DNA from: Oceanobacillus sp. FSL K6-2867
Lineage (GTDB): Bacteria; Bacillota; Bacilli; Bacillales; Amphibacillaceae
Direction of reading: 5' to 3'
NCBI RefSeq assembly: GCF_037963145.1
Contig: NZ_CP150144.1
Span: 2,418,001-2,482,000 of the forward strand
Length of the DNA stretch: 64,000 nucleotides
The notes under the pieces are model-generated. The model saw only the letters and a list, made by a program, of their open reading frames with translations. It was not told the DNA's origin and ran no database searches. Both the position numbers and the translations under genes were made by a program. The first letter of the stretch is position 1. Each line of letters begins with the position of its first letter. Positions 14,051-24,222 of this stretch are shown piece by piece.

Positions 14051-14947
14051 ATAAATCAGATTCAGCATTTTACAAACATTTTAGCCAAAACAATTAAAAC
14101 AGGGATTATTAAATCAAACCTTATTCCAATGTTTGCTGGATTAACATTGTCCTTATATACTTATCAAATCAGTATTTTTGAGAAGATGCCTGAGATTATA
14201 TTTGCTTTTATTGGTTCTATATTCGTAATTGGGGCAGCAGGAGCTTTCAATAATGTATATGACAGGGATATAGATTCCATCATGAAGCGAACTAAAAACA
14301 GACCAACTGTAACAGGAGAAATAAAGCCGAAAGCAGCAATATGGCTTGGTATCTTCATGTCTGTTTCAGGAATAGCGTTTCTTGCATTAACAACTACCTT
14401 GGCAGCATTATTAGGGTTTCTAGGTTTATTTTTTTATGTTTTCCCATATACGATGTGGAGTAAAAGAAGAACCGTTTATAATACGGAGATTGGTAGTATT
14501 TCTGGAGCGATGCCGCCACTTATTGGATGGGCTGCTATTTATCCAGACATTACACACCCAGCTATTCTTGGACTGTTTGTCATCACCGTTATCTGGCAAA
14601 TGCCGCATTTCTATTCCATAGCTATTCGGAAGCATGATGAGTATACGGCTGCAAATGTACCCATGCTGCCGGTTGTGAAAGGAATTAAGAGGGCATATAT
14701 ACAAACTAACGTATATTTAATAATACTAGTTGCAATAAGTTTTCTATTTGGATCTTTAAGCATTGGGCTTATGTTAGTGGCACTTCTATTAAGTCTTATA
14801 TGGCTGGGGCTAAGTATATTCGGCTATAAAAAGATGGATTCGGAGAGATGGGCAAAAGCCATGTTTATTTATTCATTAATCCATATGACAATTCTTTTTT
14901 CAACTGTCATTATATATTCCCTGATGGGGATTCTCTTTGACTTATAA
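14051..14947 (+). CDS. ctaB: Protoheme IX farnesyltransferase (heme O synthase), ATA start proposed
   Basis: An integral membrane prenyltransferase that joins farnesyl diphosphate to heme B, giving heme O for terminal oxidases. The Asp-rich motif NNVYDRDIDSIMKRTKNRP and the second motif KHDEYTAANVPMLPVVKG are present, with about nine membrane spans. The first ATG in frame is at 14129, but homologous sequence (AKTIKTGIIKSNLIPMFAG) begins well upstream and the frame has no ATG, GTG or TTG before it. A GGGGGAGAG ribosome site points to ATA at 14051 (298 residues); ATT at 14060 is an alternative. It is divergent from a TetR and not next to ctaA. Confidence 0.85.
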   Translation: MNQIQHFTNILAKTIKTGIIKSNLIPMFAGLTLSLYTYQISIFEKMPEIIFAFIGSIFVIGAAGAFNNVYDRDIDSIMKRTKNRPTVTGEIKPKAAIWLGIFMSVSGIAFLALTTTLAALLGFLGLFFYVFPYTMWSKRRTVYNTEIGSISGAMPPLIGWAAIYPDITHPAILGLFVITVIWQMPHFYSIAIRKHDEYTAANVPMLPVVKGIKRAYIQTNVYLIILVAISFLFGSLSIGLMLVALLLSLIWLGLSIFGYKKMDSERWAKAMFIYSLIHMTILFSTVIIYSLMGILFDL

Positions 14948-15152: not shown

Positions 15153-15749
15153 TCACTTGATACTGCTGGAAATAAACATAGATGCATCTTGCTTCATAAA
15201 AATCCTGTTTCCGTGATAGAAGGTCTTCATTTCAGTTGATTTAAATCCAGCTTCAGCTAACTTTTCCTTTAGCTCCGTATGCGAAAAACCATTATGAACT
15301 TTTGGATGATTAATTTTATCATTTTTATCAAAATCAATTATGATTAACTTACCGCCATCATTTAAAATGTTGAACAATGCTTGCAAAATTTTCTGTGTAT
15401 CTGGAATATGAAGCAGGACTAAAGACATTAAAACGATGTCTGCTTTAAACTTAGGAACTTCCTGCGTAAAATCGGAGTAAAGTACGTTTGCATTGGTAAT
15501 TTCTCTGCGGGGAATTTTAGCCTGTGCAACCTCCAGCATTTGTTCAGATGAATCCACTAACAAAATGGAATCCACTAAATCTGATAATTCTAAGCCGATT
15601 AAGCCAGTCCCGCTCCCATAGTCAATTAAAGATTTTGATTTACTATTTTGTAATGCGCCCCTTACTTCCTTTACGATAATCTTAGCTAATTCCATTCTTT
15701 CTTCTGTATCATATTTTTTTGCAAGCTGTTCAAAAACGTTATTTTCCAT
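15153..15749 (-). CDS. Class I SAM-dependent methyltransferase
   Basis: 198 residues starting at an ATG with AAAGGAGCAG upstream. The SAM-binding motif I is LIDYGSGTGLIGLEL (about 41-55), motif II an acidic LLVDSSEQML, and DIVLMSLVLLHIPD and GGKLIIIDFD follow. The substrate is unknown. The open frame continues upstream of the start into an unrelated acetyltransferase remnant, so the longer translation is misleading. Confidence 0.8.
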   Translation of the reverse strand: MENNVFEQLAKKYDTEERMELAKIIVKEVRGALQNSKSKSLIDYGSGTGLIGLELSDLVDSILLVDSSEQMLEVAQAKIPRREITNANVLYSDFTQEVPKFKADIVLMSLVLLHIPDTQKILQALFNILNDGGKLIIIDFDKNDKINHPKVHNGFSHTELKEKLAEAGFKSTEMKTFYHGNRIFMKQDASMFISSSIK

Positions 15750-15759
15750 ATGCTGCTCC

Positions 15760-16027
15760 TTTATTATTAAGAATTGATGCATGTTCATTACATAAACAAC
15801 AAACAAGTGGAATGATGTTTGTCTCACACCTTCTTCACGATATTCTAGGCATACACATAAATTACAACTTCTTAAGTTTTTGTACCCATCAAAAGCTCTG
15901 ATACCGCCGAGTATTAATCCAGCAGGTTCATCCTCTTGAAAGACAATAAAAAGCATCTCCTGCAATTTATATTGTGCCTCCCTAGTTATCTGGTTAAAAA
16001 AATGACTAACAAACCCCTTTGGAATTT
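15760..16027 (-). pseudogene. GNAT acetyltransferase remnant
   Basis: Upstream of the methyltransferase start the same frame reads LQEMLFIVFQEDEPAGLILG, then GGIRAFDGYKNLRSC and LCVCLEYREEGV. These resemble the central strands and a degraded acetyl-CoA loop (normally EYRGKGVG) of a GNAT protein. No start, no complete loop and no C-terminus are present, and the left part runs into the terminator of the gene behind it. I read it as a decayed internal fragment. Confidence 0.45.
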
Positions 16028-16034
16028 GCTAGTC
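15995..16034 (-). terminator. Terminator of the isoprenoid-synthase gene
   Basis: On the minus strand GACTAGCAAA pairs with TTTGTTAGTC around AT-rich loop bases and is followed by seven T. It lies 20 bp after the stop at 16057. Confidence 0.75.
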
Positions 16035-16056
16035 ATGTTACATATTTGCGCCAAGT

Positions 16057-18417
16057 TCAATACCCACGGTGGACAAAATAATCCAACACATGCTTTAAAA
16101 ATGGATCTTTATGGTTTAAGGTCTGCAACGTTTCCATCGCTAAACAATAATGCATCCATAGTTCTTTTTTTGCGGCTTCTACCCCGAGAACGGAGACGAA
16201 CGTGGAATTGTTATTTTCCTTATCTCTAAATGGAGATTTACCAAGTTCAAATGGATCACCCTCCACGTCGAGCAAGTCGTCCTTAATCTGGAAGGCAATC
16301 CCGGCATGGCGTGCGAATTGTTTTAATGCCTCTTTTTCAGATTCACTTGCACCTGCTAGAATTGCTGGCAACATAAGGGCAGCTTCGAACCCGAGCCCTG
16401 TTTTATAAAAGCACATCTCATTCAATTGCTCGAGTGTGAGATGTTCTCCCTTTGTCTGTAAATCCATAGCCTGCCCCCGGCACATGTCAGCCGTCACATT
16501 TGCCGAATAGTGAATAAGCTGGAGGACGTTTTTAGTATCAAAGTTTTCAAGAGATGCCTGCTCTGCCACTGCTTGCTGTGTTAAATAAAGACCGGTTAAC
16601 TCTGCAGTAGCCGTATTGTATACCTGATGCAAGGTGGGGTTACCTCTCCGAACATCTGCATTATCCTGAGCTGGCAAGTCATCATAGATTAAGGAAGCGG
16701 TATGCATATATTCCAACGACTTTAGCAGCGGCTGGATGGATTTCTTATCCAAGCCATATTCCTCGACACTCATGAAGCCTGTAATAATTGGGCGCAGTCT
16801 TTTTCCTGTGCTGCCTAAGCTATAATTTGCAGCTTCGATGACTGACTCATCAAGCAAGGCATTTTTTTCTTTCTGAGAAATCGGCAAGATGGTATTTAAA
16901 TCTTCGCGCAGACGTCGTGCGAGTGCGACAAATGCATCCCTTTCCTCTCGATCCTGTCTTAAGTTACGAATCATACGATCACGGATCAATTTATCAAAAA
17001 ATTCCACGTCTGTTGCATGTTGCACGAGATCATCGACAGTATGCTGTAACGCGGGAACCCCTGAGAAAAGAAGGTGCATCACTTGCCCGTATTTTTGATC
17101 TCCTTTTTTTGCTTTAAATCGTTTCAAACTATTAATTGCCCGAGATAAAATCACTTCACGTGCTTTAGGATCAGAATTGTATACGTTGTGAATGAAGTTG
17201 GCGATGACCGTCCAATAAAGCTCAAACGGATTAATCAAATCCTTCCGCTTCTTATGATGCTCCAGGTAATAGGTGTATGGTGTTACTCTGCCGCCTTGCC
17301 GGTCATCTGCCATATCGGTAAAATCATCTGCAAGCTGGTTGTATATCCCATAATAAAATGTCCGTTGATCGATCCCGGCATCCTCAGAAGCATCAATAAT
17401 TGAACGAACGATTAGACGGGATGCCGACGATTTTAAAATAACCGGAAGATACAGCTCTTCATTCGTATATGTTTTATTTGCTAAATCCTTTATACGCTCG
17501 ACTTCCTGTGATTGATAAAAAACATAAGCCTGTTCGAGGAAAGCTTCCCAGTCCTCAGCGGGAAGACTTTCCTGAATCAATTCAAACGCAGCCTTCAGCT
17601 CGGAATGAATAAAGCGCATATGCTTCCCGTTTTTCCCTGTCCATTCACCTAACGGGGGAACGATCCCTGTGACGAGTGTGGCTCGGATCAGCTCGGAATA
17701 GCGATTTTTCTCTTTCTCAGACAATACATTGGAGTCGAGTAAATCATCTATAAACGGATAGGTAAGACCATAGGCATAGCCTAGTCGAATTGCTTGCTCA
17801 AGTTTGGCGGACTTTTCTTCCGGTATGATGTCATCTCCCATTTCCTCTATTGCCTGCATGACTAATCCAGCTATTATCTTAATTAATTTACGTTGCGCTT
17901 CTTCGGCATCCATACCCTCTGGAATATTGTCGGTAATTTTATTTAGCTTTTCCGTTACCCAAATGAATGTTGACTCAATCCCATTCTTCTCTGCCATCCG
18001 GTACAATTTTGTCATGCTGAACATGCTATCTTGATTCGCCTGTTTCCTCGTAAGCTGTTCTTTTAATCGATCGACAACACGCCCAATCCGTTTTTGTGTA
18101 GCAGGAGAGTCAAGCGCATGCCCCATGTCCCGCATGAAGATATAGGAGATGCTTCGATCCAGATACGGATCTAATTTTCCCGTCATCTTTAATGATTGGA
18201 TAAACTTGTAGTCATCCAGCTGTTTTTTATTTGTTAAGGTGGACAATAACGAGCGGCGCTGAACATGATGCTGTTTCCATATTTCAAAATCCTTTATTAA
18301 TGCGTGTACATATGATCGATTAGCATGCTGCTCTTTTAGGGAATTAAAATAGGCCTTGGCTCTTTGCTCTGCTTTATGATAAGCATTGTCCCCATTAATG
18401 ATTGTTTTTTCACTCAT
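16057..18417 (-). CDS. Fused double isoprenoid synthase: terpene-synthase-like N-terminus plus polyprenyl diphosphate synthase
   Basis: A 786-residue protein. The C-terminal ~300 residues are a complete IspA-type trans-prenyltransferase: GKRLRP (538-543), first Asp-rich motif DDLPAQDNADVRRG (579-592), second motif QIKDDLLD (710-717). The N-terminal ~480 residues are all-helical and carry two further Asp-rich motifs, DDLLD (224-228) and DDFTDMADD (364-372), suggesting a second class I terpenoid-synthase fold. Usual polyprenyl synthases are about 300 residues. I infer that one half makes a prenyl diphosphate and the other uses it, but the product is unknown. The ribosome site GAGGT is about 10 bp before the ATG. 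The gene is monocistronic with its own terminator. Confidence 0.75.
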   Translation of the reverse strand: MSEKTIINGDNAYHKAEQRAKAYFNSLKEQHANRSYVHALIKDFEIWKQHHVQRRSLLSTLTNKKQLDDYKFIQSLKMTGKLDPYLDRSISYIFMRDMGHALDSPATQKRIGRVVDRLKEQLTRKQANQDSMFSMTKLYRMAEKNGIESTFIWVTEKLNKITDNIPEGMDAEEAQRKLIKIIAGLVMQAIEEMGDDIIPEEKSAKLEQAIRLGYAYGLTYPFIDDLLDSNVLSEKEKNRYSELIRATLVTGIVPPLGEWTGKNGKHMRFIHSELKAAFELIQESLPAEDWEAFLEQAYVFYQSQEVERIKDLANKTYTNEELYLPVILKSSASRLIVRSIIDASEDAGIDQRTFYYGIYNQLADDFTDMADDRQGGRVTPYTYYLEHHKKRKDLINPFELYWTVIANFIHNVYNSDPKAREVILSRAINSLKRFKAKKGDQKYGQVMHLLFSGVPALQHTVDDLVQHATDVEFFDKLIRDRMIRNLRQDREERDAFVALARRLREDLNTILPISQKEKNALLDESVIEAANYSLGSTGKRLRPIITGFMSVEEYGLDKKSIQPLLKSLEYMHTASLIYDDLPAQDNADVRRGNPTLHQVYNTATAELTGLYLTQQAVAEQASLENFDTKNVLQLIHYSANVTADMCRGQAMDLQTKGEHLTLEQLNEMCFYKTGLGFEAALMLPAILAGASESEKEALKQFARHAGIAFQIKDDLLDVEGDPFELGKSPFRDKENNNSTFVSVLGVEAAKKELWMHYCLAMETLQTLNHKDPFLKHVLDYFVHRGY

Positions 18418-18448
18418 ATATTTACTTACCTCGAATTCCTGGTTTTTT

Positions 18449-18616
18449 CTATATAAAAAATTTGGTCAATATTAGTTTATCATGCATTAACAGGCTGTAA
18501 TACCCTACCTTTTCATGTGATGGAAGGGAACCGGACAAGTGACGGGTTAAACAGTCCGTAAATTCCTGATATTGTTCAAGGGGCACTGTTTCTTCTGAAT
18601 GAAGTTTTACTTTATT
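18449..18616 (-). pseudogene. Unstarted coding-like fragment upstream of the isoprenoid synthase
   Basis: A minus-strand frame free of stops for 55 codons reads protein-like (LEQYQEFTDCLTRHLSGSLP, then SHEKVGYYSLLMHDKLI) but has no start codon with a ribosome site. Composition suggests a decayed gene end. I do not recognise the family. The remainder of 18418-18971 shows nothing else that I can support. Confidence 0.25.
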
Positions 18617-18971
18617 TTACGCTGGTTTATAATTCCTATGATAACTTGAGAAGCCAATACCATCCCAATATCCATTCACTCCTGGTTTTTGGAATTGTAA
18701 GTTTTAGACATTTTGGATGAGTACCCATGTTTAATTTTTCCCCTTACTTATAACAGTATAACCCTATTTAAATACGTGCTAAGGGTGAAAAAAGATTCAT
18801 CTTTTTTTGGAGCAGAGTTTTTTCGACATCATCTATTTATAGCGATTAAGCTCTGCGCAAAAAGCACATACCATACTCCCGCAGGATCGCCACCTATCAG
18901 AGAAGCGTGCAGTCTCTACTCTCATGTAAAACTCCCTAAGTAAAACTAAAGTCCTTAAATTTAACGTTTTT

Positions 18972-19489
18972 ATGGAAAGTGATTGGGGGAAAAAGTACAG
19001 GGAGTGCAAATTTGTCATACAGGATGTATTTTTTGGCTTAAAGGATAATACTCTAGGGGCATCACTAGCAATAACTGGATTTTTAACGTTGACGATGATT
19101 ATGGAAAATGCAGGACAGACAAATGTACTTGCTCTTGGAATTGCGGAAGTATCACCACCAGCTGTTTATGCAGGATTAGCAAATGTCATTGGAATTATTG
19201 GTGCCTTTATGACATTATCGAATACATCATCGAATGTGCTGTTCTCGCCATTGCATGGATCTGTTGTGATTTGATGGAAGGCTTATCCTTGCCGTTCGTT
19301 ATCGCTGGACAATCAACAGGTGGAGCAATTGGTAATGTCTTTGCACCAGCCAATATTGTATTGGGAACAAGTACAGCGAACGCACAAGGAAGGGAATCTG
19401 AAGTGTATAAGATTACGCTCATCTTCGCATTGCTTGCAGGTGTCGGCGTTTCAGCTGTGACTGTATTATTGCATTTTATAGGAGGTTAA
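18972..19489 (+). pseudogene. L-lactate permease (LctP/LldP family), truncated and frameshifted
   Basis: Only the C-terminal third (~170 of about 550 residues) of a lactate permease is left. The first part has ENAGQTNVLALGIAEVS and SNTSSNVLFSPLHGSVV, then stops at TGA near 19272. The other frame continues at once with MEGLSLPFVIAGQSTGGAIG and APANIVLGTSTANAQGRE, conserved in this family. Both the missing N-terminus and the frameshift make it non-functional. The 18420-18970 region upstream does not contain the missing part. Confidence 0.75.
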
Positions 19490-23507: not shown

Positions 23508-24222
23508 ATGTTTTTAAGACGAATTGAACTTCAAGGTAATCGTATTCCTTCTTTTCATACCTATCCGTTTTCGATTCCCGCCATTAAAAGTCTTGGTCAA
23601 TTGGATTTAACGAACATGGTAACCTTTTTGGTTGGTGAGAATGGTACAGGGAAATCCACATTGCTAGAGGCGATTGCTGATAAGGCTGGCTTTAATACAG
23701 CGGGTGGTGGAAGGAACAATTATTATGATGTATCTGCTTCTGAATCGGCACTTGGGGATTATATTCGCCTTTCTTGGATGTCGAAAGCCACAAACGGCTT
23801 TTTTTGAGGGCTGAGTCTTTTTATAATTTTGCTACGTATATTGATTCCGTAGGTGCTCAAGGTGCATATGGCGGCCGTTCCTTGCATCATCAATCACATG
23901 GAGAGTCATTTTTTCGCTTTTTCTAAATCGGTTTAAAGGGAATGCCATCTATTTATTGGATGAGCCAGAGGCTGCTTTATCACCTCAACGCCAGCTCTCA
24001 CTTTTACGAATTATCCATGATTTAGAAGCGGCCGGCGATAGCCAGTTTATTATTGCTACACATTCTCCGATTCTTTTAGGGTATCCAAATGCAGCTATCT
24101 TAAGTTTTGATGAAGGGGCAATTCAAGAGATTGATTATGAGATGACCGAACATTATCAAATAACAAGCTATTTTTTACAACATCGAGAAAAGTTTTTGCA
24201 GGATATTTTTCGTGATTCATGA
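23508..24222 (+). pseudogene. AAA-family ATPase broken by two frameshifts
   Basis: The first frame has FLVGENGTGKSTLLEAIADK (Walker A) and runs to NGFF, where a run of seven T (23789-23795) should be eight to continue LRAESFYNFATYID. A second single-base loss near 23908 breaks ESFF / LFLNRFKGNAIYL. The last part restores DEPEAALSPQRQLSLLRIIH (Walker B) and IIATHSPILLGYP. Repairing both gives one ATPase of about 240 residues related to ABC/RecF-type DNA-associated ATPases. Both lesions are in or near T-runs, so an assembly error cannot be excluded. Confidence 0.75.

Follow-up and report, generated by a model that had tools for sequence, protein, structure and literature searches.

A conserved bacterial fusion of a trans-prenyl diphosphate synthase with a candidate class I terpene synthase domain in Oceanobacillus and its relatives

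What would a bacterium make with a single polypeptide that carries four aspartate-rich motifs of the isoprenoid-synthase kind? Such a protein is encoded within a 64,000-nucleotide stretch of DNA from Oceanobacillus sp. FSL K6-2867 (contig NZ_CP150144.1, positions 2,418,001 to 2,482,000; hereafter the window), whose genome is one contig of 4.4 Mb. The gene lies at window positions 16057-18417 on the minus strand, as an open reading frame (ORF) of 786 amino acids with an ATG start codon; the plus strand across the same interval contains many stops in the frame read. Its translation and the family-wide homologues delimit an N-terminal class-I-like domain and a C-terminal trans-prenyl diphosphate synthase, referred to below as the N half and the C half. 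The original prediction, made from the letters of the DNA, described a fused double isoprenoid synthase with the motifs DDLLD (residues 224-228), DDFTDMADD (364-372), DDLPAQD (579-585) and IKDDLLD (711-717), and all four are found at exactly these positions. Our preferred reading, to which we assign a probability of about 0.58, is that the protein is a bacterial bifunctional prenyltransferase-terpene synthase (PTTS), in which the C half would make a prenyl diphosphate longer than C15 and the N half would convert that product.

The fusion of the two halves is genuine and has been kept over many species. Searches with the N half, in which the window's own genome is counted, detected the fused gene in 55 of 159 genomes of its family; at the class level the gene was present in 43 of 398 genomes and at the phylum level in 9 of 398, one of these being a free-standing protein. 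A profile derived from the N-half alignment (A1) recovered six fused proteins and no free-standing one from 249 phylum genomes, and 72,556 plasmid records gave no match for either the N half or a free-standing relative. An uninterrupted frame of at least 771 amino acids is present in 51 of the 55 family members. The nearest of 22 named loci belong to Oceanobacillus polygoni (89% identity) and O. profundus (88%), measured over the best segment, residues 1-786. The alignments comprised 55 of 60 non-redundant rows for the N half (L012, L015, L019, L028 and L040 being left out) and 52 of 60 for the full-length protein, with identities to the window protein reaching down to 40% and 46%, respectively. 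Mean pairwise identity is 0.55 in the N half, 0.64 in the C half and 0.34 in the linker.

The C half (residues 505-786; 16060-16905, minus strand) is, by its profile matches and conserved residues, a complete prenyl diphosphate synthase domain with an intact catalytic set. The polyprenyl synthetase family PF00348 matches residues 526-752 with an E-value of 3.5e-52 (177.5 bits, against a gathering cut-off of 27), and both aspartate-rich motifs are present together with the basic residues KR.RP, RRG and KT, which places the C half within this family. The best NCBIfam model is that of farnesyl diphosphate (FPP) synthase, at 213.7 bits and below its own cut-off of 275; Pfam and NCBIfam agree with the IspA-type C half originally proposed. 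Likewise, a phmmer search with the C half retrieved solved structures of FPP and geranylgeranyl diphosphate (GGPP) synthases, the best being 1rtr (E 3.8e-41). Invariant in all 52 full-length rows are K539, R542, P543, H572, D579, D580, D585, R590, R591, G592, K672, T673, Q710, K712, D713, D714, D717 and K727, with R540 nearly so; the second motif, IKDDLLD, which holds four of these residues, lies at 16267-16287 on the minus strand. Since the catalytic residues are unchanged in every row, the usual isopentenyl diphosphate (IPP) and allylic sites, which these residues form, are intact.

We investigated whether the C half is simply the FPP synthase of the cell. The same genome also encodes IspA (L002, 36% identical to the C half) and HepT (L003, 30% identical), and IspA was present in all 31 family genomes sampled. 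In the C-half tree, a branch supported at 100/99 separated the 52 C halves from the 30 IspA sequences; HepT formed a long branch by itself, and the bootstrap was not fully settled. Furthermore, the residue five positions before the first C-half motif (DDLPAQD, 16663-16683, minus strand), A574 in the window protein, is alanine in 51 and glycine in one of the 52 C halves and tyrosine in all 30 IspA sequences. Because IspA is encoded separately, the clades are distinct and the chain-length residue differs, identity with the housekeeping FPP synthase was ruled out. A small residue at this position goes with GGPP-type enzymes and an aromatic one with FPP-type enzymes, while the DDxxxxD spacing of the first motif is of the short-chain type. 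The alanine or glycine of the C halves predicts a product longer than C15, with C20 expected as the most likely length and C25 as a less likely one.

The N half (residues 1-500, with a core at about 130-485; 16918-18417, minus strand) is proposed to be a terpene synthase or class I prenyl-diphosphate domain on the strength of its predicted structure, its free-standing homologues and weak matches to PF00348. It had been called unfamiliar, and indeed no Pfam or NCBIfam family scored above its cut-off in this part of the window protein, so that no non-enzymatic domain, which would have told against the original prediction, was detected there either. A search of solved structures with the 55-row profile found no convincing relative, the best hit (E 0.065) being an unrelated viral protein. 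The conservation of the N half is nevertheless strong, with 68 invariant columns over the 55 rows. These include all seven aspartates of the two class-I-like motifs, D224, D225 and D228 in DDLLD (17734-17748, minus strand) and D364, D365, D368 and D372 in DDFTDMADD (17302-17328, minus strand). As the motif aspartates of the N half are invariant in 55 of 55 rows and those of the C half in 52 of 52 full-length rows, the motifs are not due to chance. R176, K177 and K180 are also invariant among the aligned N halves.

Screening the N halves against Pfam gave matches to PF00348 below the cut-off (E up to 1) in 19 of 55, the best with an E-value of 1.3e-4, and no other family was matched by more than four of the 55. 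The gathering score was not reached by any of them, the best printed value being 19.7 bits against 27. In 5 of the 18 N halves scanned (2/10 and 3/8) the match extended as far as profile positions 194-197, shortly beyond the second motif, the register being judged from the C-half match of the window protein. RRG is not present after the first N-half motif. In elongating enzymes RRG helps to bind IPP, and its lack here therefore favours ionisation of a prenyl diphosphate over elongation.

The structure of the protein was predicted by AlphaFold2 from 52 sequences, giving a mean predicted local distance difference test score (pLDDT) of 87.4 and a predicted template modelling score of 0.86. Both halves were modelled as helical throughout, save for short strands in the C half, and a long helix (474-510) leads from one into the other. 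Ten-residue means of pLDDT in the N half lay for the most part between 81 and 96 and dropped at residues 55-66 and 127-129; the model, a structure prediction of the kind that had been proposed originally as a check, is confident and all-helical here. The N-half motifs are both placed close to or at the ends of helices: the first closes helix 221-228, and the second spans the end of helix 347-367 and the start of helix 369-374. The C half is similar, in that helix 562-579 ends where its first motif begins and the second motif is near the end of helix 692-719. The two motifs are spaced by 140 residues in the N half and 134 in the C half, and in both halves an invariant lysine (K329 and K672, respectively) is found in the helix before the second motif. 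The model supports, but does not close, the assignment of the N half as an all-helical class-I-like domain, an assignment based on motif invariance, helix layout, the in-register but weak matches to PF00348 and a transitive link between profiles. Of the two class I folds originally proposed, that of the C half is well supported and that of the N half is supported to this extent.

The transitive link was provided by free-standing relatives. A 397-amino acid protein from another class of Bacillota matches the N half with an E-value of 1.7e-4; a second genome encodes a partner 48% identical to it, and a third relative is more distant. These proteins, of about 400 amino acids (L148:7215-8447, minus strand; L091:8302-9555, plus strand; L063:3-1193, minus strand), share homology with the part of the N-half core that carries the motifs; they are unfused, and their first motif is YxDNxxDD instead of IDDLLD. 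They carry DNxxDD, EKGG and QxxDDLQDVxxD motifs. Comparison of the N half with these relatives by hhalign gave probabilities of 95-96%, against 0.3% for a reversed control. In the opposite direction, where the phylum sample has eight genomes with the fusion, a profile of two of the relatives recovered the fused N half from four of them, with a best E-value of 6.3e-9, and not from the other four, the window's own genome included. These homologues show the N half to be the fused form of a domain found elsewhere as a separate protein. The copies in L148 and L091 lie near genes that look transposase-like by eye.

Taken as a bifunctional PTTS, the protein would work in two steps. The C half would act as a trans-prenyl diphosphate synthase, condensing IPP with an allylic diphosphate to give a product that exceeds FPP in length, GGPP (C20) being the most likely and C25 a possible one. 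The N half, using its own two Mg-binding aspartate motifs, would ionise a prenyl diphosphate, presumably the one made by the C half, and cyclise or otherwise convert it to a terpene hydrocarbon or alcohol, for which no dedicated partner enzyme would be needed. Proximity of the two halves, or channelling between them as suggested in the original prediction, may assist this transfer, and the product may have a role in the membrane or envelope.

Several results weigh against this reading. Four of the 55 family members (G011, G022, G083 and G108) have internal stops or short frames, and the gene is therefore dispensable in some strains. The profile search proposed at the outset failed to connect the N half with terpene synthases: no terpene synthase Pfam model matched the N half of the window protein or 18 homologous N halves, and none was among the 25 of 57 families shown for the 55 N halves. 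The NSE/DTE motif is not present in the N half, its second motif having the form DDxxDxxxD. Set directly against the C half or IspA in hhalign, the N half gave probabilities of 0.1-4.1%, which are not significant, and one alignment with IspA set the first N-half motif on the second aspartate motif of the synthase, in the wrong register. With the AlphaFold2 secondary structure included, the direct comparison reached 0.1-0.7%, which the reversed controls equalled or exceeded (0.6-4.7%). A comparison with the single HepT sequence reached 49-71%, but over 24 columns and with the first N-half motif placed on the second aspartate motif of HepT, and was rejected as well. The free-standing relatives hit no Pfam family, and the three of them compared with IspA-type enzymes gave a probability of only 19% (P 0.0012, in a comparison without a reversed control). 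In that alignment the lysine and the second aspartate motif are in register and the first motif is within a few residues, so the shared domain leans towards the prenyltransferase superfamily. Direct homology between the N half and the synthases was set aside as evidence in favour of the connection by way of the free-standing relatives; confidence is limited because the direct comparison of the halves is not significant and the short IspA and HepT alignments are out of register.

The same features could be explained in other ways. In the main rival, which we consider unlikely, the N half would be a class I prenyltransferase joining the C-half product to a second prenyl diphosphate, head-to-head or in another irregular manner, or to a lipid, nucleoside or small-molecule acceptor. 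To the eye, the second motif of the N half (DDFTDMADDRQGGRVTP; D-xxx-D-xxx-D, then G and P) is similar to the corresponding motifs of squalene/phytoene synthases and of prenyltransferases, and the invariant R176, K177 and K180 could mimic the GKRxRP diphosphate site. However, SQS_PSY (PF00494) matched neither the N half of the window protein nor the 18 homologous N halves listed in full and was not among the 25 of 57 families shown for the 55 N halves; the only SQS_PSY hit of the window protein (E 0.0017) falls in the C half. Moreover, the 60 loci compared (window included) offer no fixed neighbour that might supply or use an acceptor.

A catalytically inert N half is harder to reconcile with the data. 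That it is a partner adjusting how active the C half is or how long a chain it makes, in the manner of HepS or the small subunit of GGPP synthases, seems improbable to us: two-subunit synthases such as HepS/HepT of Bacillus subtilis are established, as stated in part of PMC7839719, and fusion would be a simple way of keeping such a subunit, but an inactive subunit would not need seven motif aspartates that are invariant in 55 of 55 sequences, and the window protein has no HepS-type Pfam hit. The free-standing relatives, too, retain aspartate-rich motifs, and a scan for the DDxxD-RRG pattern found no synthase in the 8-18 kb around the three of them. Least credible, and already disfavoured, is an extra, redundant FPP synthase with a non-enzymatic N-terminal extension. 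The C half is IspA-like, as this would demand, yet it forms a clade apart from IspA with a different chain-length residue, the constraint on the N half comes close to that on the C half (0.55 and 0.64, against 0.34 in the linker), and the fusion persists in 55 of 159 genomes at family level and 43 of 398 at class level.

If the bifunctional reading is true, the two-in-one layout would have arisen more than once, a new class I enzyme family would be added, and many Bacillus-type bacteria would be expected to make an unrecognised terpenoid. A more far-reaching proposal can be put forward only tentatively, with somewhat less than even chances: that the protein is the first bacterial counterpart of the PTTSs, evolved independently, joining a GGPP-type synthase to the founder of a new class I terpene synthase family with free-standing members in other Bacillota; that it stands alone across Bacillales and is probably induced by envelope stress in some species; and that it makes an undescribed membrane di- or sesterterpenoid alongside the YtpB sesquarterpene pathway. 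Since the gene stands alone, a single expression experiment could reveal the product.

The genomic neighbourhood was compared over the 60 loci, a set that holds some genomes twice (e.g. L011 and L102) and a few with short flanks. Even the most widespread neighbour family is limited to 21 of them, from which it follows that the product should need either no further step or only general enzymes to finish it. The two commonest families, ABC-transporter-like ATPases (21 of 60 loci, function judged by eye) and a protein of about 490-505 amino acids (13 of 60), lie at varying distances and were rejected as partners. About 20 bases past the stop codon of the fused gene, a terminator-like hairpin of 16 pairs (5 G-C) followed by a T run is present at 16002-16036 (minus strand). 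Three hairpin and T-run sites were found in 15950-19000, against 2.8 expected by chance, and the stem at 16002-16036 is by far the longest.

Other ORFs were noted around the gene. Directly downstream, and split from it by the hairpin, is a methyltransferase-like ORF by eye (15153-15965, minus strand), with relatives in the same place in O. polygoni and O. profundus (L004 and L005); it did not group with neighbours of other homologues. Upstream, an ORF of 100 amino acids (18972-19274, plus strand) clusters with frames of about 540 amino acids upstream in the same two species and looks by eye like the remnant of a permease gene. At 14129-14947 (plus strand), 1.1 kb from the fused gene, an ORF has the look of a heme O synthase-type (UbiA-like) prenyltransferase and shares no family with the neighbours of other homologues in the 60 loci. 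Two adjoining ORFs of 99 and 88 amino acids at 23508-24222 (plus strand) resemble fragments of one broken ATPase gene. Elsewhere, a record titled Arthrobacter beigongshangensis (L009) contains a fused homologue that shares about 61% identity with the window protein and resembles the Bacillaceae homologues, possibly through a mislabelled genome or a transfer.

Transcription signals were examined in the DNA upstream of the fused genes. No convincing sigma-70 promoter precedes the window gene, with nine candidates in the region against 6.9 expected. In 61 upstream regions compared with 531 control genes, the patterns of SigE, SigK, SigG, SigF, SigB and SigH were not enriched, the sigma-A pattern was rarer (1/61 against 83/531), and the SigW pattern occurred in 4/61 against 1/531. 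A pattern of the extracytoplasmic function (ECF) type, [GA]TAAC-N14-18-CGTA, was present in 10 of 12 loci and 0 of 133 controls; the 12 comprise 11 from one other family, its loci with short flanks being left out, and one from Paenibacillus soyae. The remaining loci gave 0/48 against 4/499. These ECF-like patterns were written after inspection of the upstream DNA. The stricter GTAAC-CCGTAT was found in 7 of 12 loci against 0/133, the narrower [TG]GTAAC form in only 1 of 12 (Fisher p 0.08), and TGAAAC-N14-18-CG in 0/12 against 1/133, and in 4/48 of the other loci against 2/499. A common promoter-like (T/C)GTAACC-N-CGTAT pattern of ECF type lies upstream in L024, L092-L094, L096-L099, L108 and L109, which make up 10 of the 12 loci, against 0/133 controls. 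None of these patterns is present upstream of the window gene, the comparison covering the window and its two closest relatives, and envelope-stress control of the fused gene in some species is therefore a lead only.

Among known systems, the IspA- and CrtE-type trans-prenyl diphosphate synthases (PF00348) share with the C half the whole domain and the catalytic set; unlike IspA, the C half forms its own clade, has alanine in place of tyrosine at the chain-length position and is fused. The YtpB/BalTS class IB enzymes (DUF2600) are likewise terpene enzymes of Bacillales with non-canonical aspartate-rich motifs, and the window's genome encodes a separate YtpB. In keeping with the original prediction, the N half shows no sequence match to this type. 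PF10776 (DUF2600) had no hit in the window protein or in any of the 18 homologous N halves with complete listings, and kinship suggested by a second motif similar by eye (D-xxx-D-xxx-DL-xx-G) was rejected with an hhalign probability of 0.2%, against 0.3% for a reversed control. The N-half motifs also differ from those of the YtpB type, given in part of PMC7839719 as DYLDNLxD and DY(F,L,W)IDxxED. YtpB was present in 20 of 20 fused-bearing and 27 of 40 other family genomes, in a sample of 60 not corrected for kinship. The ytpAB genes of B. subtilis are activated by the ECF factor sigma M (as stated in part of PMC8144471), and some fused-gene homologues similarly have ECF-like promoter patterns upstream.

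The closest comparison is with the fungal PTTSs, described in part of PMC8307374 as single chains of about 700 amino acids, with an N-terminal class I domain and a C-terminal prenyltransferase, that produce di- and sesterterpenes and are called unique to fungi. No bacterial chimera of this kind was found among the matches listed in the open-licence literature (titles and the starts of abstracts). Unlike the fungal enzymes, the window protein is bacterial, and its N half has DDxxD and DDxxDxxxD instead of DDxxD/E and NSE/DTE and lacks a terpene synthase family match. It resembles fusicoccadiene and ophiobolin F synthases in domain order and in its similar length, and shares with them a prenyl product predicted to be C20 or longer. 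The order of the domains and the C half are those of the PTTS layout, and a class I fold of the N half is indicated by the PF00348 matches below cut-off, the AlphaFold2 model and the alignment of the free-standing relatives with IspA. The layout is best read as a bacterial analogue of the fungal PTTSs, with a different N half.

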